Below, piece after piece: positions 10,808 through 33,136 of a stretch of DNA of 64,000 nt. This DNA is from Volvox africanus (Eukaryota > Chlorophyta > Chlorophyceae > Chlamydomonadales > Volvocaceae). Each line of letters begins with the position of its first letter. Position 1 is the stretch's first letter. The notes below the pieces were generated by a model. It was given only the letters and a program-made list of their open reading frames with translations. It was not told the origin of the DNA and did no database searches. A program made the translations under genes and the position numbers. The DNA is taken from positions 2,108,001 to 2,172,000 of the forward strand of contig BSDZ01000023.1 in NCBI GenBank assembly GCA_030268105.1. Direction: 5' to 3'.

Positions 10808-11230
10808 TGTTGTATATGGTACCCACGAAGGGTGGTATCAAAAGATACCGGTTGTTGTGCCAGAGCCCGATTAAGTAGAGCCGCCGACTAGGTCGTACTT
10901 GAGAGACCATAAGGCCTCGAACCGGGCGTGACCTTCAGAAATCACCACTACAACCGGAGATTCAGTGAACCAGGAACCAGATGTTCCACCATTTACCATT
11001 CAGGCGGTAAATGGCCCATTCCATACAGGTTATGGAGTAACCGACAGGTTCGGATGTTTCAGGAAGTCGGTTAGTATTGGTCGTCGACAGCCGAGACCAA
11101 ATCCACAAATCGAATGCCAGATGGAAACATGAAACAGTTAATATGATAATTAAATATATTATATTATAAAATAATAAACAGATAATTATTATATCTTAAT
11201 GAATTACCGAAATGCATTAAGGATACAACA
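10808..11230 (-). repeat. 3' LTR of B1
   Basis: The 423-bp LTR has ends TGTTGTAT...ATACAACA. Its sequence appears identical to 16590-17012, so insertion was recent. In element orientation this is the downstream LTR, next to the polypurine tract. A TTATATTATAAAATAATAAA stretch inside could serve as a TATA or poly(A) signal. Confidence 0.95.
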
Positions 11231-11246
11231 ATTGTTCCCCCTCTAG
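11231..11246 (-). promoter_or_regulatory. Polypurine tract of B1
   Basis: Read on the minus strand, CTAGAGGGGGAACAAT lies directly against the 3' LTR, as expected for the plus-strand primer of an LTR element. B2 has the same tract at 35257-35271. Confidence 0.85.
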
Positions 11247-11299
11247 ATGCAGCGTCCCGATGCATAAGAAGAGAGCAGACAGGTTGAAGTAGGACAGCG

Positions 11300-14200
11300 T
11301 CAGAGAGGTCCGTCCTTAGACTGTGCCCGCAGCCTAGCTTCATCAAGCAGGGGTTTCATGTCAGGGGTGAAGTTACGTGCCGGTTCCCAGCTATTGTGCT
11401 CAGATGAATACCCAGACCATTTAACCAGGTACTCATGCACATTGCGCTTACGCCTGCCCTTGCCAACACGTCGTGCACGATAATCTAGGATACGTTCGAC
11501 AGCATACAGGGTCTGCTTACCCGATAACCAGGTAGAGGGATTAGCTTCCGTAACAGGAGGGATGCTATCGTTAGCCTCAGGCAGAGTACCCCGATATGGA
11601 CGTACGAGAGATACATGAAATGTGGGATGAATGCGTAGGTCAGATGGGAGTTGTAACTCTACAGCCACCGACCCTACCATGCGTACGACAGGATAAGGCC
11701 CCACAAAGCGCGGTAATAACTTGCGAGACCCATCAGCCAGGGAACGAAGGTTCTTCGTGCTCAACATAACCAGCTGGTCCTTGGTGAACGTGACGTCCTT
11801 TTTGGACTTGTTATAATAGTCCATAGCCCGTTGCTGTGCAGCTTCCAGGCAAGCTTTAGCGTCAGTTAGTCGGGACACGAAAGACTTAGCAAACGTTTTT
11901 GCAGCTGGAACATTTACGTCCAACTCCCGCCAAACAGGCAAAGCAGGGTTAAAACCGTAATTCAGGAAAAACGGACTATTACCAACGGACCGGTTAGTAG
12001 CGTTATTAATGGCAAACTCAGCAGCGGCTAGGTAGGTATCCCATGCAGTAGGGGTGCGTCCTGCAAAGTTACGGAGCATATCACCCAGGACACGGTTAAC
12101 ACGCTCTGTTTGCCCATCAGATTGGGGGTGGTAGGCGGTGGACAGGTTCACCCGCATTCCTACCAGAGTCCCCAGGGCGCCCCAAAACTTACTTGCAAAT
12201 TGAGTGCCGCGGTCAGATACCACGGACTTGGGGACCCCATGCAAACGTACCACATTGTCGAAAAATAGACGGGCCGTTTGCTCAGCTGTGCAGGATGATG
12301 TCGTGGGGGCCAGGTGGACCATCTTGGTGAAACGGTCGACCAGGACCAGCACGGCATCGTATCCTCCCTCAGTTTTGGGCAGCGCAACAATAAAGTCCAT
12401 AGAGACGCTTTCCCACGGAGCGTCAGGAATAGGAAGAGGTTGGAGATGCCCATGTGCTTTACCAGACTGGGCCTTATTGCGCTGGCACAGGTCGCAACAG
12501 AGGACATAATTTTCGGTGTCCTTAGCCATGCGGGGCCACCAGAATTGACGCCGCAAAAGCTCTAGTAACCGCGTGCAGCCAGGATGCCCAGCAAGAGGGC
12601 CGTCATGAAAACGTGAGAGAAGTTCACGACGTAATGAATCGTCGTTAGGTACGACAATCTGACGGTGGGATCCTTCCGATCGAATCCATAAGCCATGCTC
12701 CTGTACCAAGTGCCCCGTGTTGTTGTGAATTGTGAACCACGGGTCGGCTGCATAAGCCTGTTTCAAGCGCTTGGTAAAATCGGAGGGCACGAAGTTAGGT
12801 TTTGCCTGAGACCTACTCCGTGTGCTTACCGCCAGAATGGCTGCATGCAGTGAGGGGTGCCTACTGAGAGCATCAGCTATGTTAAGTGAGCCGCTCAGGT
12901 ACTCCCAATCAAAGTTAAACCGTGCCAGGTATTCCATCCAGCGGGCCTGGCGTCGGTTAAGGGAGGGCACACCTTGCAGAAACGTAAGGGGTTTGTGATC
13001 AGTCTTGAGGGCAAAAGGCCGGCCCTCAAGGTAACATCGCCATTCCTTCAAGGCATGTAGGACCGCCAGAAATTCCTGTTCCCCAGTGGTATAACGGGTT
13101 TCAGCCCCCGAAAACTTCTTACTCGTGTATGCAATGGGGCGTCCCTGCTGCAACAGAACTGCCCCCGTCCCATGTATAGATGCATCAGTTATGACCTCTA
13201 CACGGAACGGCAATGAGTAGTCAGGGAAGTGCAGGATAATATCATCAGAGATAGCACGCTTCAAAGCATCAAAAGCTTCTTGGCATGCGGGGGTCCAGGC
13301 CTCAGGTGAAGAGAAGGCTCCCTTACGTGTGAGGTTTGTTAGCGGTGCAGCAATGACTGAGTAGCGCTCTATGAACTTACGAAAGTAGTTGGTCAGGCCC
13401 AAAAACTTACGCAGTTCCTGAAGGTTGGAGGGCACTGGCCAATCCCGAACAACAGCAGTTTTCCGGGGGTCCATCTGTATGCCACCCTGAGACACTATAT
13501 GCCCCAGATACTCCACCTGTGGTTGTGCCCAGTGGCACTTAGAACGCTTAGCATACAGCTGCTCACGCCGCAGAACCTCAAAGACCAGGCGGAGGTGTTG
13601 TATGTGCTCCTCACGGGTCTTTGAAAACACCAGGATATCGTCCAGATAACAGATGACGAATTTGTCGATGTATGGCCTGAAGATGCGGTCCATGACGGCT
13701 TGGAACGTTGCAGGGGCGTTCGTCAGTCCGAAACTAAGGACGGTATATTCAAAATGGCCAAACGGCGTACGGAAAGCCGTTTTAGGGATGTCAGATTCTG
13801 CTATACGAGTCTGATTATACCCCTGCTGGAGGTCAATAGAGCTAAAGAATGCAGAATCTTTTAGCTTATCCAGCAGATCATCGACACGTGGGAGGGGGTA
13901 ACGGTTCTTAACTGTTGCGGCATTTAACCCCCTATAGTCAATGCACATTCTCAGAGTCCCATCCTTCTTTCCCACAAACAGAATAGGGGCGGAGTATGGG
14001 GATGTGCTTGGCCGTATCATACCTTTTTTCAGCAGCTCAGTAACCTGTCGTTTGACCTCGTCCAGCTCCAAGGGGCTTAGCCGATACATGGGGCGGGAAA
14101 CGGGTACTGCACCAGGCACCAAAGGTATGGTGTGATCCACAGGCCGCATTGGAGGCTTACCAGTGACCTCCTGGAATATATCTGCATATTCCTGTAACAG

Positions 14201-15370
14201 GGCCTCAAGCTCAGGGTCAGTGGCATCAGCTGGGATAGAAGTTGCATTCAGGTGCAACTTGGGCCGTACTAGTAAAGCATGGGCCCCCTTGCGAATCATG
14301 CGAACTGCTGCTTTTCTGCCAACAACTTCAGGTTCAGTATGCTGACAGATAGCAGTGGTTGCATAATTAAAGCAAGGCGCAGGTGTCATCTGATCTGGTG
14401 GCTGTCCGGCAGTAGTAAAGGGTACCTTGCAGACTAGATTCCCCTTGCGCAGGCGCAAAGATTTAGCCTCATAGTCAAGGACAGCCCCATACTGTGCTAG
14501 CGTGGAAGAACCCAAGATATACGTGGCAGCGTCAGTTAGCTCAGGCAACACGTATGGGCGGACATTTAACCTTAAAGGACCTGCAGATAGACGAAGATTA
14601 ACCTGCCCCAAGATAGCCTGCTTACCCCCATCAGCAAGGGTAACTTCTGACCAGGAGCATGGGCTAGGTTTCAGGCCAAGCTGCGTAACCACTGAAGCCG
14701 AAATGAAATCATCACTGGCTCCAGAGTCAGCTAGGGCGGTGAACGTACGACCTGCCGTACTTACGGTGATCAGAGGTACGCCAGCACCTATCAGGGCAGC
14801 AGCTTTAGGCAAGCAGAGAACTGAAATACAGGGTTCAGTCTCAGGCAAGCCCTCCTGAACCGATTTAGGAGCAGCAAACCAGACGTCAACAGAGTATGGG
14901 CTTCCAGGGAGTTGAACAACCTCACCTGCCATATCAAGGCTATGGAAAAGAGCCGTCCCTGGATTAAACCTTAAGACCCGTTGCATTCCCGACAGAAAAG
15001 AAGGGTTGCGTCGGGACACATACTCAGGCAGCAAGATGCATGCTGAGGTATCAGGGTGTTGACGTTTGCATGCCCTAAAGAGAGCTAATTGCTTCTGTAG
15101 CTCGCAGAGTGAAGAGGGAGTGAACAAGATAGTATGCCCACCCAAGTTAGCGGAGGATAGGGGGCGACCTTGAGGCTCAAACAGATTACAAAAGCCATCA
15201 AAGCCGGCACGGACAGTTCGTGCATCAAAAGAAAAACGTCTCCCTATCACCTGCTCCACTTGGTTTAAAACAGAGGGCAAAAGAGCCCGTACTGCACGGC
15301 ACTTTGCTACCATCTGGCCCACAGCAAAGACCCCAGGTGGTGATCCCTCTATACCAGCCTGGGCAAGTTC
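11300..15370 (-). CDS. B1 Pol polyprotein (PR-RT-RH-IN-chromodomain), intact
   Basis: One open frame runs from the gag UAG at 15371-15373 to the stop at 11300. A GTG near 15322 is the first codon that could start it alone, so expression by readthrough from gag is more likely. Numbering from that GTG: an N-terminal domain of about 150 residues (GGHTILFTPSSL, ACILLPEYV, YSVDVWFAAP), aspartic protease ADSGASDDF near 199, reverse transcriptase from about 400 with YLDD near 559-562, RNase H near 680-800, an integrase HHCC finger (GHPGC near 911, CDLCQRN near 944), catalytic D, D and E near 976, 1037 and 1073, and a C-terminal chromodomain (YLVKWSGYSSEHNSWEP). Reverse transcriptase and RNase H make the DNA copy, integrase inserts it, and the chromodomain probably directs insertion by binding modified histones. 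All catalytic motifs I can see are present. Confidence 0.93.
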   Translation of the reverse strand, partial: ELAQAGIEGSPPGVFAVGQMVAKCRAVRALLPSVLNQVEQVIGRRFSFDARTVRAGFDGFCNLFEPQGRPLSSANLGGHTILFTPSSLCELQKQLALFRACKRQHPDTSACILLPEYVSRRNPSFLSGMQRVLRFNPGTALFHSLDMAGEVVQLPGSPYSVDVWFAAPKSVQEGLPETEPCISVLCLPKAAALIGAGVPLITVSTAGRTFTALADSGASDDFISASVVTQLGLKPSPCSWSEVTLADGGKQAILGQVNLRLSAGPLRLNVRPYVLPELTDAATYILGSSTLAQYGAVLDYEAKSLRLRKGNLVCKVPFTTAGQPPDQMTPAPCFNYATTAICQHTEPEVVGRKAAVRMIRKGAHALLVRPKLHLNATSIPADATDPELEALLQEYADIFQEVTGKPPMRPVDHTIPLVPGAVPVSRPMYRLSPLELDEVKRQVTELLKKGMIRPSTSPYSAPILFVGKKDGTLRMCIDYRGLNAATVKNRYPLPRVDDLLDKLKDSAFFSSIDLQQGYNQTRIAESDIPKTAFRTPFGHFEYTVLSFGLTNAPATFQAVMDRIFRPYIDKFVICYLDDILVFSKTREEHIQHLRLVFEVLRREQLYAKRSKCHWAQPQVEYLGHIVSQGGIQMDPRKTAVVRDWPVPSNLQELRKFLGLTNYFRKFIERYSVIAAPLTNLTRKGAFSSPEAWTPACQEAFDALKRAISDDIILHFPDYSLPFRVEVITDASIHGTGAVLLQQGRPIAYTSKKFSGAETRYTTGEQEFLAVLHALKEWRCYLEGRPFALKTDHKPLTFLQGVPSLNRRQARWMEYLARFNFDWEYLSGSLNIADALSRHPSLHAAILAVSTRSRSQAKPNFVPSDFTKRLKQAYAADPWFTIHNNTGHLVQEHGLWIRSEGSHRQIVVPNDDSLRRELLSRFHDGPLAGHPGCTRLLELLRRQFWWPRMAKDTENYVLCCDLCQRNKAQSGKAHGHLQPLPIPDAPWESVSMDFIVALPKTEGGYDAVLVLVDRFTKMVHLAPTTSSCTAEQTARLFFDNVVRLHGVPKSVVSDRGTQFASKFWGALGTLVGMRVNLSTAYHPQSDGQTERVNRVLGDMLRNFAGRTPTAWDTYLAAAEFAINNATNRSVGNSPFFLNYGFNPALPVWRELDVNVPAAKTFAKSFVSRLTDAKACLEAAQQRAMDYYNKSKKDVTFTKDQLVMLSTKNLRSLADGSRKLLPRFVGPYPVVRMVGSVAVELQLPSDLRIHPTFHVSLVRPYRGTLPEANDSIPPVTEANPSTWLSGKQTLYAVERILDYRARRVGKGRRKRNVHEYLVKWSGYSSEHNSWEPARNFTPDMKPLLDEARLRAQSKDGPL

Positions 15371-16442
15371 CTAGTGGTCCTTACCCTTATTTTTCTCCGC
15401 CCCCAGCATTGGGCAGGAGTCAACCCTATGTTGGTCGGAACCGCAACGGAGGCACATCCCATGTTGTTTACGGAAATGGAACTCCCGTCTAGTACATTTG
15501 AATGTGGTTAAATATTCCGCTAGGTTCTGCTTGGGCCCCTTCTTCTGCACGTGGCCCCCTTTTGGGGCCAAGTGCCTCCCCTGCTGTCCGCCGCCCCTCT
15601 TAGACTTACCGGCGCCCTTAACCTGCCGCGGCTGATCCTCGTGCCCGGTGATGCCTGGACGAACGGATGCAGCCCGCGGTTTTTTGGTCGGGGGCGCCGG
15701 GGTCTCCTCGTCAGGGTCGTCGCAGGCCATGTCCTCGTCCTCATGTCCAGTATGAGGAGGCCCAGGTGGCCTGGAAGAGGTGCCCGCAACAGCAGCACAA
15801 GTTGTTGCGGCAGCAGCGGGAGCCATCCCAGGAATATCCACGGGACCAGGTGTCAAATGGTTTGACACCAACGCTTGGATGCCTTCGATGAACTTCAAAA
15901 ATTTTGAAGTCCGCGCGTGAAGTTGATTTGCGATGGATCGGAGTGACTGGGCAGAGGTGCCGCTCCGAAGGGTCTGAGGTGTTGACACTGCAGAAGCACT
16001 CACGACGGTTGGAACAAACACATATACCTTTCAAGTAATAGAGATATATATGTATTAGTGAAAGCCGAAGTGAATTCACGAAGTCGACTCCTCGTTGGAT
16101 TCGATGCGAAGGTACTATCGAACCCGCAACTACAGGGATTCCTCAGCAAAACTGCAATACAAGTTCTAGATAGAAAGCAGTGTTGCAGGAAGATATTACC
16201 TAACAGAGAAGGCAGAATTGTCTAGGTCGCGAGCCACGTTGACCGCGACTAACTTAGAGATTGACTTTAACAGAAAGCACAGCCAAACTCACAGAGAGCA
16301 GGTTCTAAGTGTCACTAGACTAATTTCGTGAATATTACAGACCGGTGGTAGCCGCAGCGAAAATGGCGGCGCTCAGCTCCTCAGGCAATGTCTCCATGTC
16401 CAGAGGGATGTCGGCAGGAGGAAGATCGTGGTCGATGTCCAT
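15371..16442 (-). CDS. B1 gag, internally shortened
   Basis: The ATG at 16442 (MDIDHDLPPADIPLD) opens exon 1, which ends at 16343. A 355-bp GT...AG segment (16342-15988) follows, with a stop just after its start. Coding resumes at 15987 (STPQTLRSGTSAQS) and runs to UAG at 15371. Compared with B2 and B3, two blocks are absent exactly at GT/AG borders: between QAL and VSNHLTPG (junction 15867/15868) and between HEDE and DMACDDP (junction 15733/15734). Both removals keep the frame, yielding a Gag without its capsid-like core but with the proline/basic region and zinc knuckle C-x2-C-x4-H-x4-C (CLRCGSDQHRVDSC). The short Gag may be a regulatory isoform or simply a by-product of splicing. Confidence 0.82.
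15988..16342 (-). other. Gag intron 1, retained in B1 (355 bp)
   Basis: On the minus strand the segment starts GTCTGTAATATT and ends CTTCTGCAG. In B2 the flanking bases are joined directly (ACCACCG to TGTCAACACC, 19397/19398), exactly as splicing would join them. It introduces a stop soon after exon 1, so it must be removed to connect exon 1 with the rest of gag. The same 355 bp is present in B3 (32089-32443). Confidence 0.88.
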
Positions 16443-16574
16443 TTATAAAAGGGCAGCTTGAGTGGCTTGAGCGCGTTGCGCGGTTAGAGTGGCTTGAGCA
16501 GTTACCACAGAAAGACTTGAGAAGGCTTGAACGATTTCAGCGGAAGACTTGACGAGACGTCCCAGGGAGGAACG

Positions 16575-16586
16575 GTCTCGATACCA
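16575..16586 (-). promoter_or_regulatory. Primer binding site of B1
   Basis: On the minus strand this reads TGGTATCGAGAC, 3 bases inside the 5' LTR end (16590). It is identical to the sites in A1, A2 and B2. Confidence 0.78.
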
Positions 16587-16589
16587 GCT

Positions 16590-17012
16590 TGTTGTATATG
16601 GTACCCACGAAGGGTGGTATCAAAAGATACCGGTTGTTGTGCCAGAGCCCGATTAAGTAGAGCCGCCGACTAGGTCGTACTTGAGAGACCATAAGGCCTC
16701 GAACCGGGCGTGACCTTCAGAAATCACCACTACAACCGGAGATTCAGTGAACCAGGAACCAGATGTTCCACCATTTACCATTCAGGCGGTAAATGGCCCA
16801 TTCCATACAGGTTATGGAGTAACCGACAGGTTCGGATGTTTCAGGAAGTCGGTTAGTATTGGTCGTCGACAGCCGAGACCAAATCCACAAATCGAATGCC
16901 AGATGGAAACATGAAACAGTTAATATGATAATTAAATATATTATATTATAAAATAATAAACAGATAATTATTATATCTTAATGAATTACCGAAATGCATT
17001 AAGGATACAACA
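16590..17012 (-). repeat. 5' LTR of B1
   Basis: This is the upstream LTR in element orientation, 423 bp, identical by eye to 10808-11230. It should carry the element promoter. It ends against the target duplication AAGAG at 17013. Confidence 0.95.
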
Positions 17013-17361
17013 AAGAGCTCAAGCAAACCGTTGCCGAAGATGTCACCCTTGCATTCCCTGATTACTCGTTGCCGTTTCGTGTTGAGGTAGTGTCTGATGC
17101 CTCAATATTTGGAAGCGGCGCTGTATTGTTACAGGAAGGGCGACCGATCGCCTTCACGAGTAAGAAGTTTTCTGGTGCGGAGATTCGCTACACCACCAGG
17201 GAACAGGAGCTTCTGGCCGTGCTGCATGCTTTAAAGGAATGGCGCTGTTACCTCGAGGGACGCCCATTTACTTTAAAAACTGACCACAAGCCCCTAACGT
17301 TTTTGCAAAGTGTTCCGACGTTGAACCGCCGTCAGGCTAGGTGGATAGAATACCTAGCTAG
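17013..17361 (+). pseudogene. Gypsy A1 pol, RNase H remnant
   Basis: This continues A1 beyond the B1 insertion. It encodes the connection and RNase H region ([55 protein letters not shown]) and stops abruptly at WIEYLAR. At 17361 it joins satellite sequence in mid-unit, so the rest of A1, its 3' LTR and the remainder of the copia element are missing. A recombination or deletion with only a base or two of shared sequence explains the join. Confidence 0.88.
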
Positions 17362-18728
17362 ACATACACATGTCACCTTTGAAACTCGATCCCGTATCAT
17401 ATCTTACCTGTTTCGATTTCATGGGTGTAGTGACCCTGTTGTGTCTGCCTACGAAGGCCAAATCGGAGAATGTCAGTTTAAGATCCAATGATGAACACTG
17501 CCCGTACATACCCCAGGACACTTACAGTGGTCGCCTTGGTGGCGGTGTTTGCAGCGGTAGCCGTAGTGTTGTATGTGGCCGTGGTGGCAGCGGTGGCGAT
17601 GGTGGGAATGGGAACCTCTTTCCGTCCCTCCCTCCGTCCGCCACCGACGCCACCACCGACGCCGCCAAAGCACCACCATCATCGCCGACAAAGGGCGGGG
17701 GAGGGAGATGGGGAGGGCACACCGGAGCCCTATCATTATGATTCATATGATTCTTATGAATCTCATGATAATTAATAAATAATAATAGTAATTAAAATAA
17801 TAATAATTATTATTAAAATTATTATGATTATTATAAATATTAATATTACGTTAATTACGTTAATTATGTTAATTATTATTATTACGTTTATTATGTTTAT
17901 TATGTTTATTATTATTATTTATATATAAATATATTAATTTTTATAATAATAATTATTTTTATTACTATTATTTTTATTACTATTACTATTACTGTTATTG
18001 GCATTTGATTGTCACTGTTGTGGATAAGGAATTTCCGTACCTCGCAAGGCACAGCGGACCCGGATGCCTAGCATACTAAGCCCATCCTGGAATTGTGGCT
18101 GCCTACAAAGGCCCAATCGGAAATGTCAGTGGCAGTATATCGTAAATCCAAAACCAAGGGGAAGGGTCATTCACCACTCTAGAGCGAAACATCCCTGCAA
18201 GGTAATCCCTCAGTCAGTCAAGGCATCAAGACATACACATGTCACCTTTGAAACTCGATCCCGTATCATATCTTACCCGTTTCAATTTCATGGGTGTAGT
18301 GACCCTGTTGTGTCCGCCTACGAAGGCCAAATCGGAGAATGTCAGTTTAAGATCCACTTATGAACACTGCCCGTACATACCCCAGGATACTTACAGCGGT
18401 CGCCTTGGTGGCGGTGTTTGCGGCGGTAGTCGTAGTGGTGTATGTGGCCGTGGTGGCAGCGGTGGCGATGGTGGGAATGGGAACCTCTTTCCGTCCCTCC
18501 CTCCGTCCGCCACCGACGCCACCACCGACGCCGCCAAAGCACCACCATCATCGCCGACAAAGGGCGGGGGAGGGAGATGGGGAGGGCACACCGGAGCCCT
18601 ATCATTATGATTCATATGATTCTTATGAATCTCATGATTATTAATAAATAATAATAGTAATTAACATTATAATTATTATGATTAAAATTATTATGATTAT
18701 TATAAATACTAATATTACGTTAGTTATG
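17362..18728. repeat. Satellite array, block 2
   Basis: The array resumes in mid-unit (anchor at 17367), has one full 869-bp unit to 18235, and then a partial unit whose AT-rich part is interrupted at 18728 by B2. The interrupted AT-rich segment continues at 35694, so blocks 2 and 3 were contiguous before B2 inserted. Confidence 0.93.
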
Positions 18729-19150
18729 TGTTGTATCCTTAATGCATTTTGGTAATTCATTAAGTATAATAATTATCTGTTTAATATTTAATGATATAAT
18801 ATATTTAATTATCAGATTAACTGTTTCATGTTCCCATCTGGCATTCGATTTGTGGATTTGGTCTCGGCTGTCGACGACCAATACTAACCGATTTCCTGAA
18901 ACATCCGAACCTGTCGGTTACTCCATAACCTGTATGGAATGGGCCATTTACCGCCTGAATGGTAAATTGTGGAACATCTGGTTCCTGGTTCACTGAATCT
19001 CCGGTTGTAGTGGTGACTTCTGAAGGTCACGCCCGGTTCGAGGCCTTATGGTCTCTCAAGTACGACCTAGTCGGCGGCTCTACTTAATCGGGCTCTGGCA
19101 CAACAACCGGTATCTTTTGATACCACCCTTCGTGGGTACCATATACAACA
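18729..19150 (+). repeat. 5' LTR of B2
   Basis: The 422-bp LTR runs from TGTTGTATCC to ATACAACA. It differs from the 3' LTR at a handful of positions, for example AAGTACGACCTAGTCGGCGG here against CAGTACGACCTAGACGGTGG there. B2 is therefore older than B1. Confidence 0.95.
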
Positions 19151-19153
19151 AGC

Positions 19154-19165
19154 TGGTATCGAGAC
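19154..19165 (+). promoter_or_regulatory. Primer binding site of B2
   Basis: TGGTATCGAGAC lies 3 bases after the LTR, as in B1, A1 and A2. Confidence 0.78.
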
Positions 19166-19517
19166 TGTTCCTCCCTGGGACGTCTCATCAAGTCTTCCGC
19201 TGAAATCGTTCAAGCCTTCTCAAGTCTTTCTGTGGTAACTGCTCAAGCCACTCTAACCGTGCAACGTGCTCAAGCCACTCAAGCTGCCCTTTTATAAATG
19301 GACATCGACCACGATCTTCCTCCTGCCGACATCCCTCTGGACATGGAGACATTGCCTGAGGAGCTGAGCGCCGCCATTTTCGCTGCGGCTACCACCGTGT
19401 CAACACCTCAGACCCGTCGGAGCGGCACTTCTGCCCAGTCACTCCGATCCATCGCAAATCAACTTCACGCGCGGACTTCAAAATTTTTGAAGTTCATCGA
19501 AGGCATCCAAGCGTTGG

Positions 19518-19872
19518 GTAGGCCCTGGTCCTTGCCTTTGCTTTGCCTTTCGCCAGAACAGTCACTCGCAGTTCAATCTGTTAGGCTTTCAGGCATACAA
19601 TATGCAAGCCTCGAACTTAGCGAATGCTGTCTCGGCTCTTGCTGCCAACACCTTTCAGTTTGTTGGCCGGATTGCTGCTAATGCTAGCCAAGCGAATAGG
19701 TGGGAATGGCTCTCTAGGTTGACACAGCCACCAAATGCTGCTGTGGCAGGTGGTATCGACCTTCCGAACCAGCCTTCACCTATTCCCAGGCAAGGCGACA
19801 CAGCATCCCCTGAGGCACCTACATCACCTATTTATGCCCCATCCCCTTTTTATGTTCATGGCCCTGCTGTAG
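19518..19872 (+). other. Gag segment 2, removed in B1 at GT...AG borders
   Basis: The 355-bp segment begins GTAGGCCC and ends GCTGTAG. It is present in B2 and B3 (31614-31968) and exactly missing in B1. It contains a nearer acceptor (CTGTTAG at 19584). Use of the near site would give full-length Gag and use of the far site the B1 form. Family A has the same donor GTAGGC at the equivalent exon end (30309, minus strand). Confidence 0.85.
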
Positions 19873-20006
19873 TGTCAAACCATTTGACACCTGGTGCCGT
19901 GGATATTCCTGGGATGGCTCCCGCTGCTGCCGCAACGACTTGTGCTGCTGTTGCGGGCACCTCTTCCAGGCCACCTGGGCCTCCTCATACTGGACATGAG
20001 GACGAG

Positions 20007-20620
20007 GTGATAAAAATAGTGATCGCAGTGCCTAAGCTGAATATCCCTATGGATGTTAAGCTTTCTGATTTAGGACGAGTTGCTGCGCCTCTAATTTACG
20101 GGCCTTTGTCCATAATGTTAGGAACTACTTTGCCACAGCCCGTGGGGGTCAACAGGACTCTACGCGCCGTCTTTTCTTGGCCACTGCCTTTGAAGGCGCG
20201 GCAAGATTATGGCACGATCAATGGACTAACGCAAGGGATTCCTATACATCTGAGGAACTGCTAGAAGCACTGCTTGTCCGTTTTGCACCCCAGGTCCAGT
20301 CACGTGACACTGAGGCACGCCTGAAATTAAATGCTGGCAAATACCGCATGCGCCCTGGAGAAACTGTCTCTGCCTATCAGAGCCGCTTTGAGGCTCTTGT
20401 CACGCCCATTGCGGACCTGTCTGATAGTGAGCGTGTGTTTTGGTTTCAGCAGGGCCTCTCATCCGACCTTAGTGGGGACTGTGCAACTGACCTGTCGGGT
20501 AAAACCTTTAAGTCATATACAGACTTGGTTCAGTTCTCCTTGGGAGCTGAACTTAGGTTACTGGCCCGACGGGAATCTGAGAAACTGGCCCGTCCCAAAA
20601 TGAACATGCTGTCGGTACAG
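20007..20620 (+). other. Gag segment 3, removed in B1 at GT...AG borders
   Basis: The segment begins GTGATAAAAATAG and ends GTCGGTACAG. It is 614 bp here (including the 2-nt insertion) and 612 bp in B3 (30868-31479). It encodes the capsid-like core of Gag. B1 joins the flanks as GACGAG to GACATGGCC. The 612 bp are a multiple of three and the junction is in phase 0, so the shortened Gag stays in frame. Confidence 0.85.
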
Positions 20621-20983
20621 GACATGGCCTGCGACGACCCTGACGAGGAGACCCCAGCGCCCCCGACCAAAAAACCGCGGGCTGCATCCGTTCGTCCAGG
20701 CATCACCGGGCACGAGGATCAGCCGCGGCAGGTTAAGGGCGCCGGTAAGTCTAAGAGGGGCGGCGGACAGCAGGGGAGGCACTTGGCCCCAAAAGGGGGC
20801 CATGTGCAGAAGAAGGGGCCTAAGCAGAACCTGGTGGAGTATCTAACCACATTCAAATGTACTAGACGGGAGTTCCATTTTCGTAAACAACATGGGATGT
20901 GCCTCCGTTGCGGTTCCGACCAACATAGGGTCGACTCCTGCCCAATGCTGGGGGCGGAGAAAAATAAGGGTAAGGACCACTAG

Positions 20984-23900
20984 GAACTTGCCCAGGCTGG
21001 TATAGAGGGATCACCACCTGGGGTCTTTGTTGTGGGCCAGATGGTAGCAAAGTGCCGTTCAGTACGGGCTCTTTTGCCCTCTGTTTTAAACCAAGTGGAG
21101 CAGGTGATAGGGAGACGTTTTTCTTTTGATGCACGAACTATCCGTGCCGGCTTTGATGGCTTTTGTAATCTGTTTGAGCCTCAAGGTCGCCCCCTATCCT
21201 CCGCTAACTTGGGTGGGCATACTATCTTGTTCACTCCCTCTTCACTCTGCGAGCTACAGAAGCAATTAGCTCACTTTAGGGCATGCAAACGTCAACACCC
21301 TGATACCTCAGCATGCATCTTGCTGCCTGAGTATGTGTCCCGACGCAACCCTTCTTTTCTGTCGAGAATGCAACGGGTCTTAAGGTTTAATCCAGGGACG
21401 GCTCTTTTCCATAGCCTTGATATGGCAGGTGAGGTCGTTCAGCTCCCTGGAAGCCCATACTCTGTTGACGTCTGGTTTGCTGCTCCTAAACCGGTTCAGG
21501 AGGGCTTGCCTGAGACTGAACCCTGTATTTCAGTTCTCTGCTTGCCTAAAGCTGCTGCCCTGATAGGTGCTGGCGTACCTCTGATCACCATAAGTACGGC
21601 AGGTCGTACGTTCACCGCCCTAGCCGACTCTGGAGCCAGTGATGATTTCATTTCGGCATCAGTGGTTACGCAGCTTGGCCTGAAACCTAGCCCATGCTCC
21701 TGGTCAGAAGTTACCCTTGCTGATGGGGGTAAGCAGGCTATCTTGGGGCAGGTTAATCTTCGTCTATCTGCAGGTCCTTTAAGGTTAAATGTCCGCCCAT
21801 ACGTGTTGCCTGAGCTAACTGACGCTGCCACGTATATCTTGGGTTCTTCCACGCTAGCACAGTATGGGGCTGTCCTTGACTATGAGTCTAAATCTTTGCG
21901 CCTGCGCAAGGGGAATCTAGTCTGCAAGGTACCCTTTACTACTGCTGGACAGCCACCAGATCAGATGACACCTGCGCCTTGCTTTAATTATGCAACCACT
22001 GCTATCTGTCAGCACACTGAACCTGAAGTTGTTGGCAGAAAAGCAGCAGTTCGCATGATTCGCAAGGGGGCCCATGCTTTACTAGTACGGCCCAAGTTGT
22101 ACCTGAATGCAACTTCTATCCCAGCTGATGCCACTGACCCTGAGCTTGAGGCCCTGTTACAGGAATATGCAGATATATTCCAGGAGGTCCCTGGTAAGCC
22201 TCCAATGCGGCCTGTGGATCACACCATACCTTTGGTGCCTGGTGCAGTACCCGTTTCCCGCCCCATGTATCGGCTAAGCCCCTTGGAGCTGGACGAGGTC
22301 AAACGACAGGTTACTGAGCTGCTGAAAAAAGGTATGACACGGCCAAGCACATCCCCATACTCCGCCCCTATTCTGTTTGTGGGAAAGAAGGATGGGACTC
22401 TGAGAATGTGCATTGACTATAGGGGGTTAAATGCCGCAACAGTTAAGAACCGTTACCCCCTCCCACGTGTCGATGATCTGCTGGATAAGCTAAAAGATTC
22501 TGCATTCTTTAGCTCTATTGACCTCCAGCAGGGGTATAATCAGATTCGTATAGCAGAATCTGACATCCCTAAAACGGCTTTCCGTACGCCGTTTGGCCAT
22601 TTTGAATATACCGTCCTTAGTTTCGGACTGACGAACGCCCCTGCAACGTTCCAAGCCGTCATGGACCGCATCTTCAGGCCATACATCGACAAATTCGTCA
22701 TCTGTTATCTGGACGATATCCTGGTGTTTTCAAAGACCCGTGAGGAGCACATACAACACCTCCGCCTGGTCTTTGAGGTTCTGCGGCGTGAGCAGCTGTA
22801 TGCTAAGCGTTCTAAGTGCCACTGGGCACAACCACAGGTGGAGTATCTGGGGCATATAGTGTCTCAGGGTGGCATACGGATGGACCCCCGGAAAACTGCT
22901 GTTGTTCGGGATTGGTCAGTGCCCTCCAACCTTCAGGAACTGCGTAAGTTTTTGGGCCTGACCAACTACTTTCGTAAGTTCATAGAGCGCTACTCAGTCA
23001 TTGCTGCACCGCTAACAAACCTCACACGTAAGGGAGCCTTCTCTTCACCTGAGGCCTGGACCCCTGCATGCCAAGAAGCTTTTGATGCTTTGAAGCGTGC
23101 TATCTCTGATGATATTATCCTGCACTTCCCTGACTACTCATTGCCGTTCCGTGTAGAGGTCATAACTGATGCATCTATACATGGGACGGGGGCAGTTCTG
23201 TTGCAGCAGGGACGCCCCATTGCATACACGAGTAAGAAGTTTTCGGGGGCTGAAACCCGTTATACCACTGGGGAACAGGAATTTCTGGCGGTCCTACATG
23301 CCTTGAAGGAATGGCGATGTTACCTTGAGGGCCGGCCTTTTGCCCTCAAGACTGATCACAAACCCCTTACGTTTCTGCAAGGTGTGCCCTCCCTTAACCG
23401 ACGCCAGGCCCGCTGGATGGAATACCTGGCACGGTTTAACTTTGATTGGGAGTACCTGAGTGGCTCACTTAACATAGCTGATGCTCTCAGTAGGCACCCC
23501 TCACTGCATGCAGCCATTCTGGCGGTAAGCACACGGAGTAGGTCTCAGGCAAAACCTAACTTCGTGCCCTCCGATTTTACCAAGCGCTTGAAACAGGCTT
23601 ATGCAGCTGACCCGTGGTTCACAATTCACAACAACACGGGGCACTTGGTACAGGAGCATGGCTTATGGATCCGATCGGAAGGATCCCACCGTCAGATTGT
23701 CGTACCTAACGACGATTCATTACGTCGTGAACTTCTCTCACGTTTTCATGACGGCCCTCTTGCTGGGCATCCTGGCTGCACGCGGTTACTAGGGCTTTTG
23801 CGGCGTCAATTCTGGTGGCCCCGCATGGCTAAGGACACCGAAAATTATGTCCTCTGTTGCGACCTGTGCCAGTGCAATAAGGCCCAGTCTGGTAAAGCAC

Positions 23901-24042
23901 ATGGGCATCTCCAACCTCTTCCTATTCCTGACGCTCCGTGGGAAAGCGTCTCTATGGACTTTATTGTTGCGCTGCCCAAAACTGAGGAAGGATACGATGC
24001 CGTGCTGGTCCTGGTCGACCGTTTCACCAAGATGGTCCACCT
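20984..24042 (+). CDS. B2 Pol, 5' part (PR, RT, RH, integrase start)
   Basis: The frame is open directly from the gag UAG (20981-20983) to 24042, where A2 inserted. It contains the extra N-terminal domain, protease ADSGASDDF, reverse transcriptase with YLDD, RNase H and the integrase HHCC finger, in which one Arg is Cys relative to B1 (CDLCQCNKAQ). It stops after TKMVHL in the integrase core. The rest (HLAPTTSSCTAEQT onward) is at 34186-35202 in the same orientation. The two parts are not joined by any recognisable splicing, so the copy is dead since A2 inserted. No other frameshift or stop is visible in this part. Confidence 0.92.
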
Positions 24043-24866
24043 TGTTGTACCTCTCGTTCGCGTTTGCTCATAAGTATCTGCACGTCTGGAGACTTTCGAC
24101 ACCGATGCGCAAGCACTTGCAAGTACAGCAAGGCAAGCAAGAGCAAACAGAGACAGCGGAAGACTTCAAGACGAAGAGAGATATAACTTACAGTTTTACA
24201 GATTGGAACGATGGATTGGACGAAATCGCCGTCAGCGCCGGAAGCAAGCAATCATCACGCGGCGGTGATTAGCGAAGTTCAGGCTTAGCTCGGGCTAAGT
24301 AGAATAGCGTATGGCAATAGTAATGTAGAACACACATGTGTTCTCCGGTATCGAATGTCTTATTTTGCTTAGCCGTCCTCGCATCTGTTATACTCGCAGC
24401 ATCGCAATGCCGTATGATTCACATCAGGAGGCCGATCCTAGATGTGACAACACTACTGCGTCTAGGCGATGTCTACGCATAACAACGTATAAGCCTTTCC
24501 GGCATTCGCATGATGCAAGGGTCCGGATAACGATATCCGGTTGCAGGGCATGTATCACGACGAGTGCGGCGCTCTCAACGTGTGCTTTAATGAAGTAATA
24601 TTATATCAGATAACATTACTTATCGTTTTGTAGCACGAGCATAATGCGCACTTCAATGCTTCGGGCTTTCATGCATGCTAGGCGGATTTGCCATGATGCG
24701 ATGTCGCGATGGATAATGACAACATGCCAAATGCATATATAAATGTACACGAATACATTTATAACATGCAGATTCATTCATATGCAATGTGTTCATCACA
24801 ATAGCACTTCGCCTTGTAGGATCACATCGACCTACGCATCGGCGGGAAACTAACCGTAGCACAACA
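24043..24866 (-). repeat. 3' LTR of A2
   Basis: The 824-bp LTR begins TGTTGTACC on the plus strand (the LTR 3' end in element orientation) and ends GCACAACA. It is next to the polypurine tract. Confidence 0.95.
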
Positions 24867-24881
24867 ATTATCCCCCCTCCC
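24867..24881 (-). promoter_or_regulatory. Polypurine tract of A2
   Basis: GGGAGGGGGGATAAT on the minus strand directly abuts the 3' LTR. Confidence 0.85.
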
Positions 24882-24925
24882 GTATGCAGCGTCCTCGCTG
24901 CATCATACAGCATCGACTGCAGGGG

Positions 24926-27900
24926 TCATTGGGCTTGCGTGGCATGTTTGCGGGCTTCTTCGAGCAGGGGCTTCATGTCCTGTGAGAAGTTGCATGCCGG
25001 TTCCCATGAGATGTGCTCGTCGGTATACCCTGTCCACTTAACCAAGTACTCGTGTACTGTCCGCTTACGTCGGTGTCGGCCCACACGACGCGCGTGATAA
25101 TCTAACACCCGCTCCACATCGTAAAACTTCTGTTTACCAGCGATCCAGGTCTCGGGAACTGGTTCGATCGCTGCGGGGGTGTTAGCAGGCTCAGGGACGG
25201 GTTCCGTACCACGATACGGACGAACAAGCGATACGTGAAACATGGGGTGAATGGTCATATCAGCGGGCAATGCAAGCTCCACAGCCACATGCCCAACCAT
25301 GCGCACGACAGGATACGGACCAATCCAGCGGGGTAAAAGTTTTCGGGATCCGTCGGCCAAGGAACGCAAGTTCTTGGTGCTTAGCAACACGAGTTGCCCT
25401 TCCGAAAACGTCACATCCTGCTTATATTTGTTATAGTATTCCGTCGTTTGTTGCTGCGCCGCGTCCAAACACGACTTCGCGTCTGTGATTCGGGACATAA
25501 AAGACTTGGCAAAAAGTTTAGCAGCAGGCACGTTCACTTCCAACTCACGCCACACGGGTAGTGCGGGATGAAATCCGTAGTTGAGAAAGAATGGACTTTT
25601 GCCTGTAGAGCGGTTAACAGCATTGTTAAGCGCAAATTCTGCCGCAGTCAAATACGTATCCCAAACGAGTGATGTGCGACCAGCATAATTGCGCAACATA
25701 TCACCCAACGTGCGGTTTGTGCGTTCGGTTTGACCATCAGTCTGCGGGTGATATGCCGTGCTCAGGTTGACGCGCATGCCAACTAGTTTGCAGAGCGCTT
25801 CCCAAAACTTAGACGTGAACTGCCCACCGCGGTCCGAAATCACATTCTTGGGAACCCCGTGTAACCGAACCACATTATCGAAAAACAAACGTGCGGTTTG
25901 CTCAGCCGTGCAGGATGATGTGCATGGTGCTAGGTGAACCATCTTAGTGAGACGATCGACCATTACGAACACCGCATCGTATCCCCCCTCAGCTTTGGGC
26001 AGCGCGACTACGAAGTCCATGGAAACACTTTCCCAAGGCGCATCCGGGACAGGCAACGGTTGCAACAACCCCTGGCCCTTACCGGACAAAGCCTTATTGC
26101 GCTGGCACAGACTGCATGTCTGGACGAAGTTCGCCGCATCCTTAGCCAAACGAGGCCACCAAAAGGAACGTTGCACCAAATCGATCAATCACTTGCTACC
26201 AGGGTGTCCTGCTAACGGGTCCTCGTGGAACCGCGCAAGGATGTCGTAGCGTAGCGCGTCGTCGTTCGGAACGACGATTTGCGTAGCTGCACCCTCCGTC
26301 CGTAGCCAAAGGCCATTCTGCTTGCGAAGGTTTTCTACATTAGCCGGGTCCGTGAACCAGGCGTCTGCGTTGTAGGCAACCTTCAACCGCTCCGCGAGGT
26401 CCGTCGCGATCGGTACCTCCTCGCTACGCGGCCGCACGACGGGCGCTGCCAAAATTGCAGTGTGTAGCGACGGATGTCGACTGAGAGCATCGGCAATATT
26501 CAATTTACCAGAAATATACTCCCAGGTGCAGTCGAACCTAGCTAGGTATTCCATCCACCTAGCCTGACGGCGGTTCAACGTCGGAACGCTTTGCAAAAAC
26601 GTTAGGGGCTTATGGTCAGTCTTTAAAGTAAACGGGCGTCCCTCAAGGTAACAGCGCCATTCCTTTAAAGCATGCAGCACGGCCAGAAGCTCCTGTTCCC
26701 CGGTGGTGTAGCGAATCTCCGCACCAGAAAACTTCTTACTCGTGAAGGCGATCGGTCGCCCTTCCTGTAACAATACAGCGCCGCTTCCAAATATTGAGGC
26801 ATCAGACACTACCTCAACACGAAATGGCAACGAGTAATCAGGGAATGCAAGGGTGACATCTTCGGCAACGATTCATTTGAGCTCTTTGAATGCCTGCTGG
26901 CATTGCGACGTCCACGACTCGAGCAAACGAAAATGCCTTTGCGAGTTAAGTTAGTAAGCGGGGCCGCAATGATGGAATATTTTTCAATGAACTTTCGGAA
27001 ATAATTGGTCAAGCCAAGGAACTTACGCAGCTCCGTGAGGTTCCGAGGCGCGGGCCAATCGCGAACCACGGCGACCTTCCGCGGGTCCATCTTCACACCG
27101 GTGGCCGACACAATGTGGCCCAAATATTCCACCTGAGGCTGCGCCCAAAAGCATTTGGCGCGTTTAGCAAACAATTGCTCCCGCCTCATAACGTCGAGCA
27201 CGAGCCGAAGATGCTCCAAGTGCTCCTCGCGCGTCTTAGAATATACCAAGATGTCATCCAGGTAGCAAACAACGAACCTGTCGATAAACGGCCTAAACAT
27301 TCGGTCCATAACCGCCTGAAACGTCGCAGGGGCATTAGTCAAACCAAACGATAGGACCGTATACTCAAAGTGACCGAAGGGCGTCCGAAAAGCGGTTTTC
27401 AGGATATCAGAGGCAGCGATGCGAATCTGATTGTAGCCCTGTTGTAAGTCAATTGAGGAAAAATAAGCCGAGCCCTTCAGCTTATCCAACAGGTCGTCGA
27501 CGCGTGGCAAAGGGTAGCGATTTTTCACCGTATTCGCATTTAACCCCCGGTAATCAATGCACATGCGCAAGGTCCCATCCTTCTTACCGACAAACAAAAT
27601 CGGTGCAGAATACGGGGATGTGCTGGGGCGTATCATACCCTTCACGAGCAAATCCGTCACCTGGCGCTTCACCTCGTCGAGCTCCAATGGACTCAACCTG
27701 TACATTGGCCGGGCCGTAGGCTGCGCTCCAGGCACGAGAGGGATTGTGTGATCAACAGGACGCATAGGTGGTAGGCCAGGGATATCTTTAAAGACGTCCT
27801 CATACTGCGACATTAGGGCCTCAACCTCAGGATCTGCAGAAATCTGCGTGGTGGTGACACAACAGCTCACCCGCGGCCTTAAAAGCAGTCCGTGGGCACC

Positions 27901-28986
27901 CTTCCGTAACAAACGGACGGCCTCCTTACGCCCGACTAGCTCTGGTTCGATTCGCGCGGCCATTGCGGTCACAGCGAAATTAACCATAGGCACCGCCTCA
28001 GTTTCGCCCTCCTTTGGTGTGACATGTTTGAACGACAGGAAAGGTACCTTAATCGACAGAGCACCCTTGCACATATGCAGGGTTGCGGTCTCCATGTCGA
28101 TGCGCGCGCGGTACTGCCGTAATGTCGACGACCCCATTATGTACGGTGCAGTCTCTGCTAAGCCCTGCAGCACGTACGGCCAGGTCACAACACGCAAAGG
28201 GCCTATCGATAGGCTAAGGGTAATCCTGCCCACGATGGGATGCTTACCCCCGTCAGCAAGGGTAACCTGTGGACAATCAGACGACTCTGGGGACAACCCC
28301 AGCGCATTCACCTCTGCGACAGAGATGAAGTCGTCGCTGGCACCGGTGTCAACAAGTGCCTTCAGAGTACGGCCATTCAAACCGATCTGAACCACAGGGA
28401 CACGGTTATCTATGAGCGACTGCCCAGCAGACAACGTCAGTGCACTTAGGGCGGGTCCGTAACCTACGGCACCCCCGTCAGGAGCTTCGTACCAAACGTC
28501 AACCGAGTAGGATGTGCTTGGCCACGGAGCCAGCGTACCCTCCCGATCCACACCATTAAACAAAACGGTGCCCGGCTCGAACCGGTGGACATGCCGCATA
28601 CCCCTTAACGATGCCTCTGCCTTGCGCCGACAGAAAGCGGGGAGTAAAACACATGCGGCGGTGCCTGGATATTGACGCCTACACCTCCTGTATATGGCCA
28701 ACTGTTCCGACATCTCACGCAGAGATGAGGGGATGAACAAAACCACGTGGTTAGACAGATCGATAGACGACAGGGGACGGCGAGGTGTAAACAAATTACA
28801 CAACGGGTCGAAGCAGAGAAGTCCCGTGCGTCCGTCAAGCGTGATGCGTCGCGCAATGACTCGCTCGATGTGTCCAAGTACACAAGGCAACAATGCCTTA
28901 ACGGCTGGCCGTAAGGATGACCACCGACCACGCGTTAGTTCAGAAATCCCAGGTGGTGCCCCCTCCGCAGGAACCCGGGCAAGCCC
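24926..28986 (-). pseudogene. A2 Pol (PR-RT-RH-IN-chromodomain), two lesions
   Basis: The frame opens directly after the gag UAG (28987-28989). It has the extra N-terminal domain ([22 protein letters not shown]), protease [12 protein letters not shown], reverse transcriptase with [10 protein letters not shown], RNase H, integrase (SMDFVVALPK, VISDRGGQFTS, GQTERTNR) and a chromodomain (YLVKWTGYTDEHISWEP), ending at 24926. Lesion one is a frameshift near 26935, after NLTRKGIFV, shared with A1. Lesion two is an in-frame TGA near 26189, between GHPGSK and LIDLVQRSFWWP, consistent with CGA to TGA. It shares domain order with B1 but differs clearly in sequence, so A and B are separate families. It would be active only if both lesions were absent. 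Confidence 0.92.
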
Positions 28987-30222
28987 CTATTTCGGCTGAG
29001 GTACAAACGGCGGCATTAGAGGGCAATCCTTCGTAGAATGACTCTCCGCACACCGTAGACAAACGTTGGCCAATTTCCGACGCTCGAATTCGGAACGATT
29101 GCAATTCCATTTTGGCATATACGTGTTGTCCGTGCGAGTCCGCTTCGCATTGGGGTCGGAACGCTGTGGGGCTGCCGTCGACGGCGCACCACCACGCTTC
29201 CTGTTTTTAGCCGGGTCCGCGCTCGGACCTGCTCCTCCTGACCCACGGACACCCGAGCTAGCGCCCCCGCGCGCCTGGCGTTGCCGGTTGCTGCGTCGCG
29301 TCGCGGCAGTAGGCGTGGGGCGGGTCGCTCCAAAGTCCTGGTCAAGAGCTACGGCTTCCCCAAGCGGATCCTGCACTTGCACGGCATTTGCATGAGGGGC
29401 AGACTTGACTTCTTCCTCACCGGCAAGGAGTCGTATCTCCGTGCCCTTAGCAAAAGCGACCAAAGCATCATACGACTTGATCTGCGCTCCAACCAAGTCA
29501 GTAGCGCACCATTTAGCCAAAAGTTTCGTCAGGCCTCGCCTAAACCAAAAGACACGCTCGGATTCAGTGAGGTCAGCAATGGGAGTCACAAGTGCTTCGA
29601 AGCGTGACTGGTACGCAGGTACATTCTCATCCCGACGCATGTGGTAGCTACCGGCTGCCAAATCCTTACGAGCTTCCACATCGCGTGCTTGAACCTCAGT
29701 AGCGAATCGTGCGAGCAAAGCGGCGACCAACTCGTCAAAAGTATAGTTGTCCCGGGCGTTGGTCCAATTGCGATACCAGTCCTTCGCTGAGCCCTCGAGG
29801 GTGTTACCAACGAAGAGACACCTGATACCGTCATTATCGCCACCATGAACAGCCTGGAGATACTTTTTAGCGTCACGCATGTACGCACGAGTTGCATCGG
29901 CTATGCTATGCCCTGGTGTCTTGTCGGTCAGCGAAATATTGAGCCTAGGAACGGGAATCGACAATCTCATCACCTCAGGGATGTCATCATGCCCTCGAGC
30001 TTGAGGTAATGGCAGAACCCTTGTTCCAGCAGTGTTGTCCATATTCGTGTTCACTGCTGAATGTGGCACAATTAAGTGAGCAGGGGTCTGAAGGAAAAGG
30101 GGCTCTTGAGTGGCTCGCGCGCCAACAGCCTCAAGACCTCTATCCGGTGCTCTAGCAGCCACAACAAAATCGGGTTGGCTAGCTAGGCTAGTGTGCGGCG
30201 TATCGTCGTGTTCCGCGGACAT
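28987..30222 (-). CDS. A2 Gag, main exon
   Basis: The frame is open from ATG at 30222 (MSAEHDDTPHTSL) for 411 codons to a UAG in frame with pol. The central part (YQSRFEALVTPIADLTESERVF is the recognisable stretch, split here: YQSRFEALVT and PIADLTESERVF) matches family B Gag. The C-terminal part is Arg/Gly/Ala-rich with a zinc knuckle C-x2-C-x3-H-x4-C (CLRCAESHSTKDC), which binds element RNA. Upstream exons probably exist: exon 1 at 33294-33207 and exon 2 ending at 30310. The splice acceptor for this exon could not be fixed, so the ATG at 30222 is a minimum start. Confidence 0.85.
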   Translation of the reverse strand: MSAEHDDTPHTSLASQPDFVVAARAPDRGLEAVGARATQEPLFLQTPAHLIVPHSAVNTNMDNTAGTRVLPLPQARGHDDIPEVMRLSIPVPRLNISLTDKTPGHSIADATRAYMRDAKKYLQAVHGGDNDGIRCLFVGNTLEGSAKDWYRNWTNARDNYTFDELVAALLARFATEVQARDVEARKDLAAGSYHMRRDENVPAYQSRFEALVTPIADLTESERVFWFRRGLTKLLAKWCATDLVGAQIKSYDALVAFAKGTEIRLLAGEEEVKSAPHANAVQVQDPLGEAVALDQDFGATRPTPTAATRRSNRQRQARGGASSGVRGSGGAGPSADPAKNRKRGGAPSTAAPQRSDPNAKRTRTDNTYMPKWNCNRSEFERRKLANVCLRCAESHSTKDCPLMPPFVPQPK

Positions 30223-30309
30223 GGAGCACGAAATGATACCCTAGGTTTGCGTAATAGAAGCCGACTTCTATCGCAAAGGCAAGAGTACAAAGCGATTCGG
30301 TGAGCCTAC

Positions 30310-30439
30310 CGACAGTACTCTTGAGAAGATTCAGTAAACTCAGCAAGTACTTGCCCAGCTGAGTCCTGATCTCTGTAGTTTGGGAAATGAGAGTCGCCAA
30401 CTGGTCCGGACGAAAGCCGGTCTCAGTCGCCGCAGCAAG
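30310..30439 (-). CDS. A2 gag exon 2, 3' part
   Basis: The frame LAAATETGFRPDQLATLI, QLGKYLLSLLNLLKSTVG ends at a donor GTAGGC (30309), the same hexamer and phase as in family B. Its 5' part lies beyond the chimeric insertion (33119-33136) and joins exon 1 in phase through a 70-bp intron. The helical, Leu-rich character matches the corresponding B exon (LHARTSKFLKFIEGIQALG). Confidence 0.6.
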
Positions 30440-30444
30440 CAATG

Positions 30445-30548
30445 TGTTGTATCTCTGTTGTGTCGGCCAACAAAGGCCCGATCGGAAGGATGACCATCTA
30501 AGGTCCAGGATCCTTTGACACTGCCCGTAGATACCCCAGGATACTACA
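30445..30548 (-). repeat. Complete LTR of short element C
   Basis: The 104-bp repeat has TG...CA ends (TGTTGTATCTC...GGATACTACA on the plus strand). Its last 48 bp in element orientation recur at 30740-30787. It resembles about 100 bp of every satellite unit (for example 809-909), sharing CTGTTGTGTC, AAGGCC, CACTGCCCGTA and ATACCCCAGGA. Confidence 0.8.
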
Positions 30549-30739: not shown

Positions 30740-30787
30740 TGTTGTATCTCTGTTGTGTCGGCCAACAAAGGCCCGATCGGAAGGATG
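30740..30787 (-). repeat. Partial LTR-C at the chimera junction
   Basis: This repeats the last 48 bp (element orientation) of LTR-C next to the primer site, ending at GATG, where sequence becomes family B gag. The truncation point may mark the 5' end of the C transcript. Confidence 0.75.
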
Positions 30788-33113: not shown

Positions 33114-33136
33114 CAATGCCGGTGCACTGAGATTAC

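Follow-up and report, generated by a model that had tools for sequence, protein, structure and literature searches.

Complete copies of a Volvox africanus retrotransposon appear to archive alternatively spliced forms of its RNA

Introduction

How do copies of a single retrotransposon family, lying within one stretch of the genome of the green alga Volvox africanus, come to differ in gag by three segments that each begin with GT and end with AG? The stretch in question, hereafter the window, comprises 64,000 nucleotides (positions 2,108,001 to 2,172,000 of contig BSDZ01000023.1, assembly GCA_030268105.1) and harbors two complete copies (B1 and B2) and one truncated copy (B3) of an element that we term family B. 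A preliminary description of this DNA had proposed that the element RNA is alternatively spliced and that its products were reverse transcribed. The genome-wide recurrence of the junctions and the presence of exon-3 skips support this proposal, and we assign a probability of about 0.93 to the reading that family B RNA was spliced at three introns and that many of the resulting states were reverse transcribed and integrated as complete elements. The genome appears to archive the splice isoforms of the element, including forms without the capsid core, which opens to direct study how a long terminal repeat (LTR) element selects its genomic RNA, in what way dependent copies originate and whether capsid-less Gag is of use.

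Results

Three gag segments with exact GT...AG boundaries

The copies of family B in the window, together with the element nested among them and the open reading frame (ORF) for pol, are arranged as follows.

10808..17012, minus strand: element B1, complete, first segment (I1) kept, second and third (I2 and I3) lost; LTRs of 424 bp with 0 differences; 5-bp duplication CTCTT
18729..24042, plus strand: element B2, 5' part, I1 lost, I2 and I3 kept (from alignment)
34186..35693, plus strand: element B2, 3' part with the 3' LTR; duplication TTATG; LTRs with 3 substitutions and 1 gap over 420
30784..33113, minus strand: element B3, 3'-truncated, I1, I2 and I3 all present, lying inside element A
24043..34185, strand not assigned: element A, another chromovirus, nested in B2 and itself containing B3; duplication CACCT (by eye)
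11300..15322, minus strand: pol ORF of B1, encoding protease, reverse transcriptase, RNase H, integrase and chromodomain (Pfam)

Family B is a Ty3/gypsy chromovirus, since the B1 pol ORF presents the order protease, reverse transcriptase, RNase H and integrase, followed by a C-terminal chromodomain (PF13975, PF00078, PF17917, PF17921, PF00665 and PF00385, in that order). B1 measures 6205 bp and B2 6817 bp once element A and its 5-bp duplication are arithmetically subtracted, the same lengths as those first reported for the two complete elements. Alignment confirmed that B2 lacks only I1 and B1 only I2 and I3, that B3 has all three, and that each segment is removable base-exactly as GT...AG. 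With boundaries marked by a slash, the joins read G/GTCTGT...CTGCAG/T for I1 (355 bp, 1 base of slip), G/GTAGGC...CTGTAG/T for I2 (355 bp, 1 base of slip) and AG/GTGATA...GTACAG/G for I3 (612 bp in B3, 3 bases of slip). The segments and junctions map to these positions.

15988..16342, minus strand: I1 in B1, 355 bp, GTCTGT...CTGCAG
15867..15868, minus strand: joined junction J2 of B1 (exon 2 to exon 3)
15733..15734, minus strand: joined junction J3 of B1 (exon 3 to exon 4), capsid-coding I3 removed
19298..19397, plus strand: coding part of exon 1 in B2, with the ATG of the MDID N-terminus
19397..19398, plus strand: joined junction J1 of B2 (exon 1 to exon 2)
19518..19872, plus strand: I2 in B2, 355 bp, with an alternative Gag start (MQAS...) at 19602
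20007..20620, plus strand: I3 in B2, 614 bp (612 in B3), encoding the capsid; in B3 its removal preserves the frame
32089-32443, 31614-31968 and 30868-31479, minus strand: I1, I2 and I3, respectively, in B3

The B2 copy of I3 is 2 bp longer than that of B3, and within it the gag frame of B2 is interrupted as compared with B3. The further claim that the second and third segments keep the frame holds for I3, whose length is a multiple of three, but not for I2 (355 bp), whose removal instead swaps one Gag start for another.

Genome-wide recurrence of the junctions

The genome of strain 1101-NZ-11 is described in the excerpted text of PMC10291315 as spanning 141.0 Mb in 129 contigs, with transcriptome-assisted gene predictions; the paper also reports deposited RNA-seq data and gives DRA015422 as the accession of its reads. 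We searched 126 of these contigs for joined and retained junctions, following the suggestion that recurrent exact GT...AG losses be sought in unlinked copies, and such losses were found, together with exon-3 skipping. The patterns for joined junctions and retained donors were allowed up to 3 mismatches, reversed-pattern controls yielded 0 matches, and the counts include duplicated copies. The exon-1 pattern matched 214 times; J1 was joined 40 times versus 159 retained donors, J2 22 versus 184 and J3 26 versus 184, so that by pattern counts the joined form makes up approximately one fifth of copies at J1, one ninth at J2 and one eighth at J3. At least one joined junction was present at 48 loci, in eight pattern-based combinations of lost segments.

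I1 only: 16 loci
All three: 13 loci
I1 and I3: 8 loci
I2 and I3: 4 loci
I2 only: 3 loci
I1 and I2: 2 loci
I1 plus exon-3 skip: 1 locus
I3 only: 1 locus

Under independence of the losses, the expected number of triple losses is 0.57, versus the 13 found by pattern. In their exons, typed copies mostly show 96-100% identity to the reference, and older copies also carry joined junctions. A locus on contig C9 counted by pattern as lacking I1 and I3 has by sequence lost all three segments (L101, ~90% identity to the reference), and the I3-only locus has by sequence also lost I1 and presents an irregular I2 region (L100, ~82% identity). Skipping of exon 3, in which the I2 donor is joined to the I3 acceptor, was detected in two copies: a young one, included in the 48 loci, and L013 (~83% identity), which keeps I1 and lies outside them.

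All-retained copies and copies without I1 and I3 recur in repeated arrays (G000 C10:3301-61645, C20:2534800-2564448 and C48:14340-179829) whose spacing is partly regular (~18.3 kb on C10), which suggests that segments were amplified once the elements had inserted. Individual copies also contain insertions of ~375 bp (L010, in I1) and ~300 bp (L042, near the end of I2) or a direct duplication of ~126 bp in exon 4, just after J3 (L048).

Distribution of splice states across copies

The history of the splice states was examined on a tree built from exons only, with 1324 columns and 64 rows (63 loci and B3), after 27 second views of copies had been dropped from 90 loci. Five of the 48 junction loci fall outside this tree (C114:108392, C117:104956, C10:357080, C9:2502911 and C76:5497771), three of which, all but C114:108392 and C10:357080, were later read in part (L091 and L102; L101; L100). 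Its 20 all-retained rows are a sample among the matches listed (the first 100 for each of the commoner patterns); the pattern counts given above are whole. Across the nine classes the tree requires 30 state changes; segment by segment, the numbers are 15 for I1, 16 for I2 and 14 for I3. Well-supported branches by themselves force at least three changes for the all-retained class, five for I1-only, four for the triple state and two each for I2 plus I3, I2-only and I1 plus I2. Two copies in different states, L011 and L029, show 0 differences over 924 exon sites (exon 4 was read in only one of them). In a comparison of exon 2 and 3 haplotypes covering 61 of the 64 rows, the other three having been dropped for incompletely read exons 2 or 3, B1 and B3 share an exon-3 base that none of the other copies has; B1 is therefore likely the spliced product of a B3-like parent.

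According to one alternative, only few splicing events were ever reverse transcribed; transposition of the spliced copies, together with template switching or gene conversion among copies, would then have spread the resulting states, and most spliced loci would not represent splicing events of their own. The high exon identity among typed copies would make recombination easy, many branches of the tree are weak, and the states are overall more clustered than shuffled labels. In addition, seven copies typed aBc in the C10, C20 and C48 arrays fall on one side of a single branch (support 91/76), six of them sharing one 5' flank, and two copies (L036 and L065) have the same triple state and identical exons at different sites. 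A transferred triple state, however, would carry along exons 2 and 3, as these are flanked by the junctions on both sides. Among the 13 triple-state rows there are nevertheless 8 haplotypes of these exons, and 3 of the 8 occur without any difference in all-retained copies, which argues against one founder state moved by recombination. The triple state considered alone is also scattered like shuffled labels (12 changes vs a shuffled mean of 12.0). Moreover, the several combinations of losses, the two exon-3 skips and the joined junctions in L100 and L101 need several events over time. We consider this alternative unlikely as an account of the whole pattern, and some spread of states by recombination possible.

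Comparison with ordinary deletions

Base-exact joins might also arise by ordinary deletion or by reverse-transcriptase jumping at short repeats, as the 1-3 bases of repeat at each join could suggest. Among the 64 typed copies, deletions of at least 15 nt located 3' of the exon-1 ATG define six distinct intervals, four of which are exact GT...AG intervals (36, 22, 24 and 2 copies) that account for 84 of 87 deletion occurrences. Truncations were excluded from this count, and for most all-retained copies the sequence read extended only over about the first three quarters of I3. When intervals of 50-1200 nt are drawn at random from the gag region, only 0.57% can be placed as GT...AG, giving P ~1.6e-8 for four of six if intervals are treated as independent, which does not hold for the exon-3 skip, as it reuses two of the sites. 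A predominance of scattered deletions at non-GT/AG positions, the pattern named beforehand as contrary to splicing, was not found in gag, where the two non-splice intervals involve 3 of 64 copies (L088; L032 and L033), two of these three sharing one insertion site. Upstream, in the LTR and leader, there are four deletion intervals of 17-27 nt (12 occurrences), none of them GT...AG. Non-splice deletions are thus real, but the same splice-type endpoints recur across diverged copies and the I2 donor is joined to the I3 acceptor in two copies, making deletion or repeat-mediated jumping a very improbable source of the three losses.

The same phenomenon was also considered for A' (window 8022-10807), a copy of family A with three internal gaps at short repeats, and was rejected, as none of the three gaps could be placed as GT...AG (by eye).

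Spliced copies as complete insertions

The 3' ends of eight spliced copies were read, and seven of them have the same 5 bases on both sides (by eye), the eighth 3' piece (L096) ending before the LTR end. In these seven copies, the aligned parts of the two LTRs (405-425 bases) show 0-2 substitutions, with 2 additional gaps in one pair. Together with B1 and B2, nine spliced copies read at both ends present 5-bp target duplications and LTRs with 0-3 substitutions. Among 58 copies with a readable 5' flank, 47 distinct insertion sites were counted. Spliced copies hence look like ordinary integrase-type insertions of complete elements, partly recent. The leader, which by eye includes a likely primer site, lies upstream of the first donor and is for that reason kept in every isoform; the isoforms would be packageable, since they exist as DNA copies.

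Gag reading frames and related proteins

The three segments differ in coding content. I1 has stops in every frame, while I2 is open in one frame, in which an ATG (MQASNLANAV...) reads into exon 3. Once I1 and I2 are removed, the frame opened by the exon-1 ATG (MDIDHDL...) extends across exons 1-3 and I3 and on through the nucleocapsid part, and exon 3 is entered in one and the same frame from either start. The capsid domain is encoded in frame by I3: a genomic copy without I1 and I2 (L046) has a 442-aa Gag ORF from the MDID start with the capsid domain PF03732, and L036, without all three segments, has a 238-aa ORF without PF03732. A CCHC motif was read by eye in Gag, and UniRef labels the gene model P0003 as CCHC-type; no Pfam zinc-knuckle match was obtained in the V. 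africanus proteins scanned.

Substitutions among copies reveal constraint in the MDID frame (nonsynonymous/synonymous, N/S, 53/40, expected 2.36, p 0.005) and in the nucleocapsid (44/45, p 7e-6), and no constraint in I1 (79/35, p 0.48) or in a shifted frame (66/25, p 0.71).

Gag-like proteins named after V. africanus VaNZ11 are 98% identical to family B over part of their length. One of the gene models, P0003 (VaNZ11_017084), begins at the MQAS start and omits I3 exactly; the copy on contig C117 with the diagnostic residue of P0003 contains I3 in its DNA, with a stop within it. Models P0009 and P0010 likewise omit I3, as judged from the models themselves. Of the two proteins from V. reticuliferus, P0011 is 57% identical over its full length to the triple-spliced protein, with joins at matching positions (it may be a spliced model or stem from an intronless copy), and P0004 retains the capsid. 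The distant relatives P0002 and P0007 have an MQA start. In models P0001 and P0010, by eye, other points inside I2 appear to be joined to the same I2 acceptor and are perhaps further donors.

That the segments are instead introns gained by an originally intronless element is scarcely credible, for although intronless copies exist and I1 and I2 are both 355 bp long, these two have no meaningful similarity, I1 is present in the two oldest rows of the tree (L013 and L088), distant relatives, P0002 among them, also have the capsid sequence of I3, and the beginning of the I2 reading frame bears a weak resemblance to P0002 and P0007. The separate notion that I1 and I2 are related mobile introns was rejected on the same lack of similarity.

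Discussion

In the reading favored here, the host spliceosome would splice family B RNA alternatively at three introns in and around gag, generating unspliced, several partially spliced, fully spliced and exon-3-skipped states, all of which would keep the LTR-derived ends, the leader and pol. Particles built from the Gag of full-coding copies would package the spliced RNAs, which would then be reverse transcribed and integrated as complete elements. Splicing would also set the protein output, retention of I2 giving the MQAS start and removal of I1 and I2 the MDID start, and removal of I3 would delete the capsid domain in frame, leaving the N-terminus and the zinc-knuckle nucleocapsid. The data are consistent with capsid-less copies having moved with Gag supplied in trans by sister copies. 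A more far-reaching idea, which we put forward tentatively and with considerable doubt, is that spliced and unspliced RNA are packaged unsorted and that the element exploits this, with regulated splicing yielding four Gag forms (two N-termini, with or without capsid), the capsid-less forms (one of them matched by a V. reticuliferus protein model) acting in particles or against assembly, and their DNA copies constituting permanently renewed dependent elements.

Several observations weigh against alternative splicing followed by reverse transcription as a full account. Splicing is read here from DNA copies and gene models; the gene models are transcriptome-assisted overall, and whether RNA backs the P0003 junction is not visible in its record. 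The predictor could have skipped I3 in P0003 to avoid the stop in the C117 copy. On the tree, the nine classes are more clustered than shuffled labels (30 changes vs a mean of 38.4, with values as low in 0 of 200 shuffles), and part of the pattern is therefore inheritance, most plainly in the aBc clade of the arrays; 29 of 50 branches are open, so single placements deserve limited trust, and template switching between copies could transfer a splice state without new splicing. The MQAS frame in I2 has few substitutions (N/S 6/6, p 0.11), and the deficit in I3 (43/34, p 0.005 with the two oldest copies) is largely gone without them (28/14). Loss of I3 alone was found by pattern only, at the one old locus that has by sequence also lost I1. 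Lastly, a pattern for exon-2 skipping gave 0 matches at up to 2 mismatches, and a predicted alternative intron of 67 nt within I2, by which the MDID frame would be linked to the MQAS frame, had 0 matches and was rejected.

Integration of spliced RNA is known in principle for retroviruses. The SD' RNA of murine leukemia virus (MLV), which gives rise to the elements termed SDARE, is spliced, packaged, reverse transcribed and integrated, according to the excerpt of PMC10496198 used here, and the DNA copies of family B, joined exactly at splice donor and acceptor, resemble this case. In MLV, however, this concerns an animal retrovirus, one such RNA and cell infection, whereas family B is an algal chromovirus with three introns, exon skipping and dozens of genomic copies in one assembly. 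Spliced RNAs of human immunodeficiency virus type 1 (HIV-1) are reported, in the portion of PMC1868081 at hand, to keep the primer site and ends and to be reverse transcribed about as well as genomic RNA, but they were measured as infection cDNA, unlike the germline copies of family B.

Among LTR retrotransposons, a close parallel is barley BARE, which is alternatively spliced close to gag and whose particles also package a gag-deficient partner (Chang et al., PMC3735527, here and below in excerpt). According to the same text, retrotransposons have to keep spliced RNA from being packaged and integrated, BARE packages a separate unspliced pool, and barley DNA yielded no amplification of DNA copies of the spliced RNA. 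Family B is like BARE1/BARE2 in being an LTR element spliced near gag and unlike BARE in that spliced DNA copies are common. A dependence of the BARE2 kind is conceivable for the capsid-less copies of family B, which are inserted elements, their renewed movement being conjecture. Drosophila copia and the plant elements Ogre and CRR are also LTR elements with spliced RNA; as described in PMC3735527, splicing removes pol in copia and reverse transcriptase in CRR and takes place between ORFs in Ogre, so that the capsid is not the part removed. Family B differs from these systems in its host group, in how many introns it has and in how many combinations they are lost, in the exon skipping, the removable capsid and the genomic copy number, with an unusual scale and combinatorial range. 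Among the open-licence papers listed by literature searches, none dealt with family B or with an LTR retrotransposon having a comparable collection of integrated splice isoforms, which is not proof of absence.

Other features of the window

Rfam and tRNA scans of the window returned 0 hits. The gag stop of B2 is followed in frame by pol.

20981..20983, plus strand: gag stop TAG, in frame with the following pol ORF (listed from 21032)

Between 20981 and 21032, pol continues the gag frame past the TAG with no further stop before its listed start, which suggests that Gag-Pol is made by read-through of the gag stop. The elements are flanked by a tandem satellite with a period of ~860 bp (window 1-6000, 17360-18729 and 35693-37540), and an ORF beside it, at 6584-7840, contains a copia-type gag domain (PF14223) and a Pol_BBD match.

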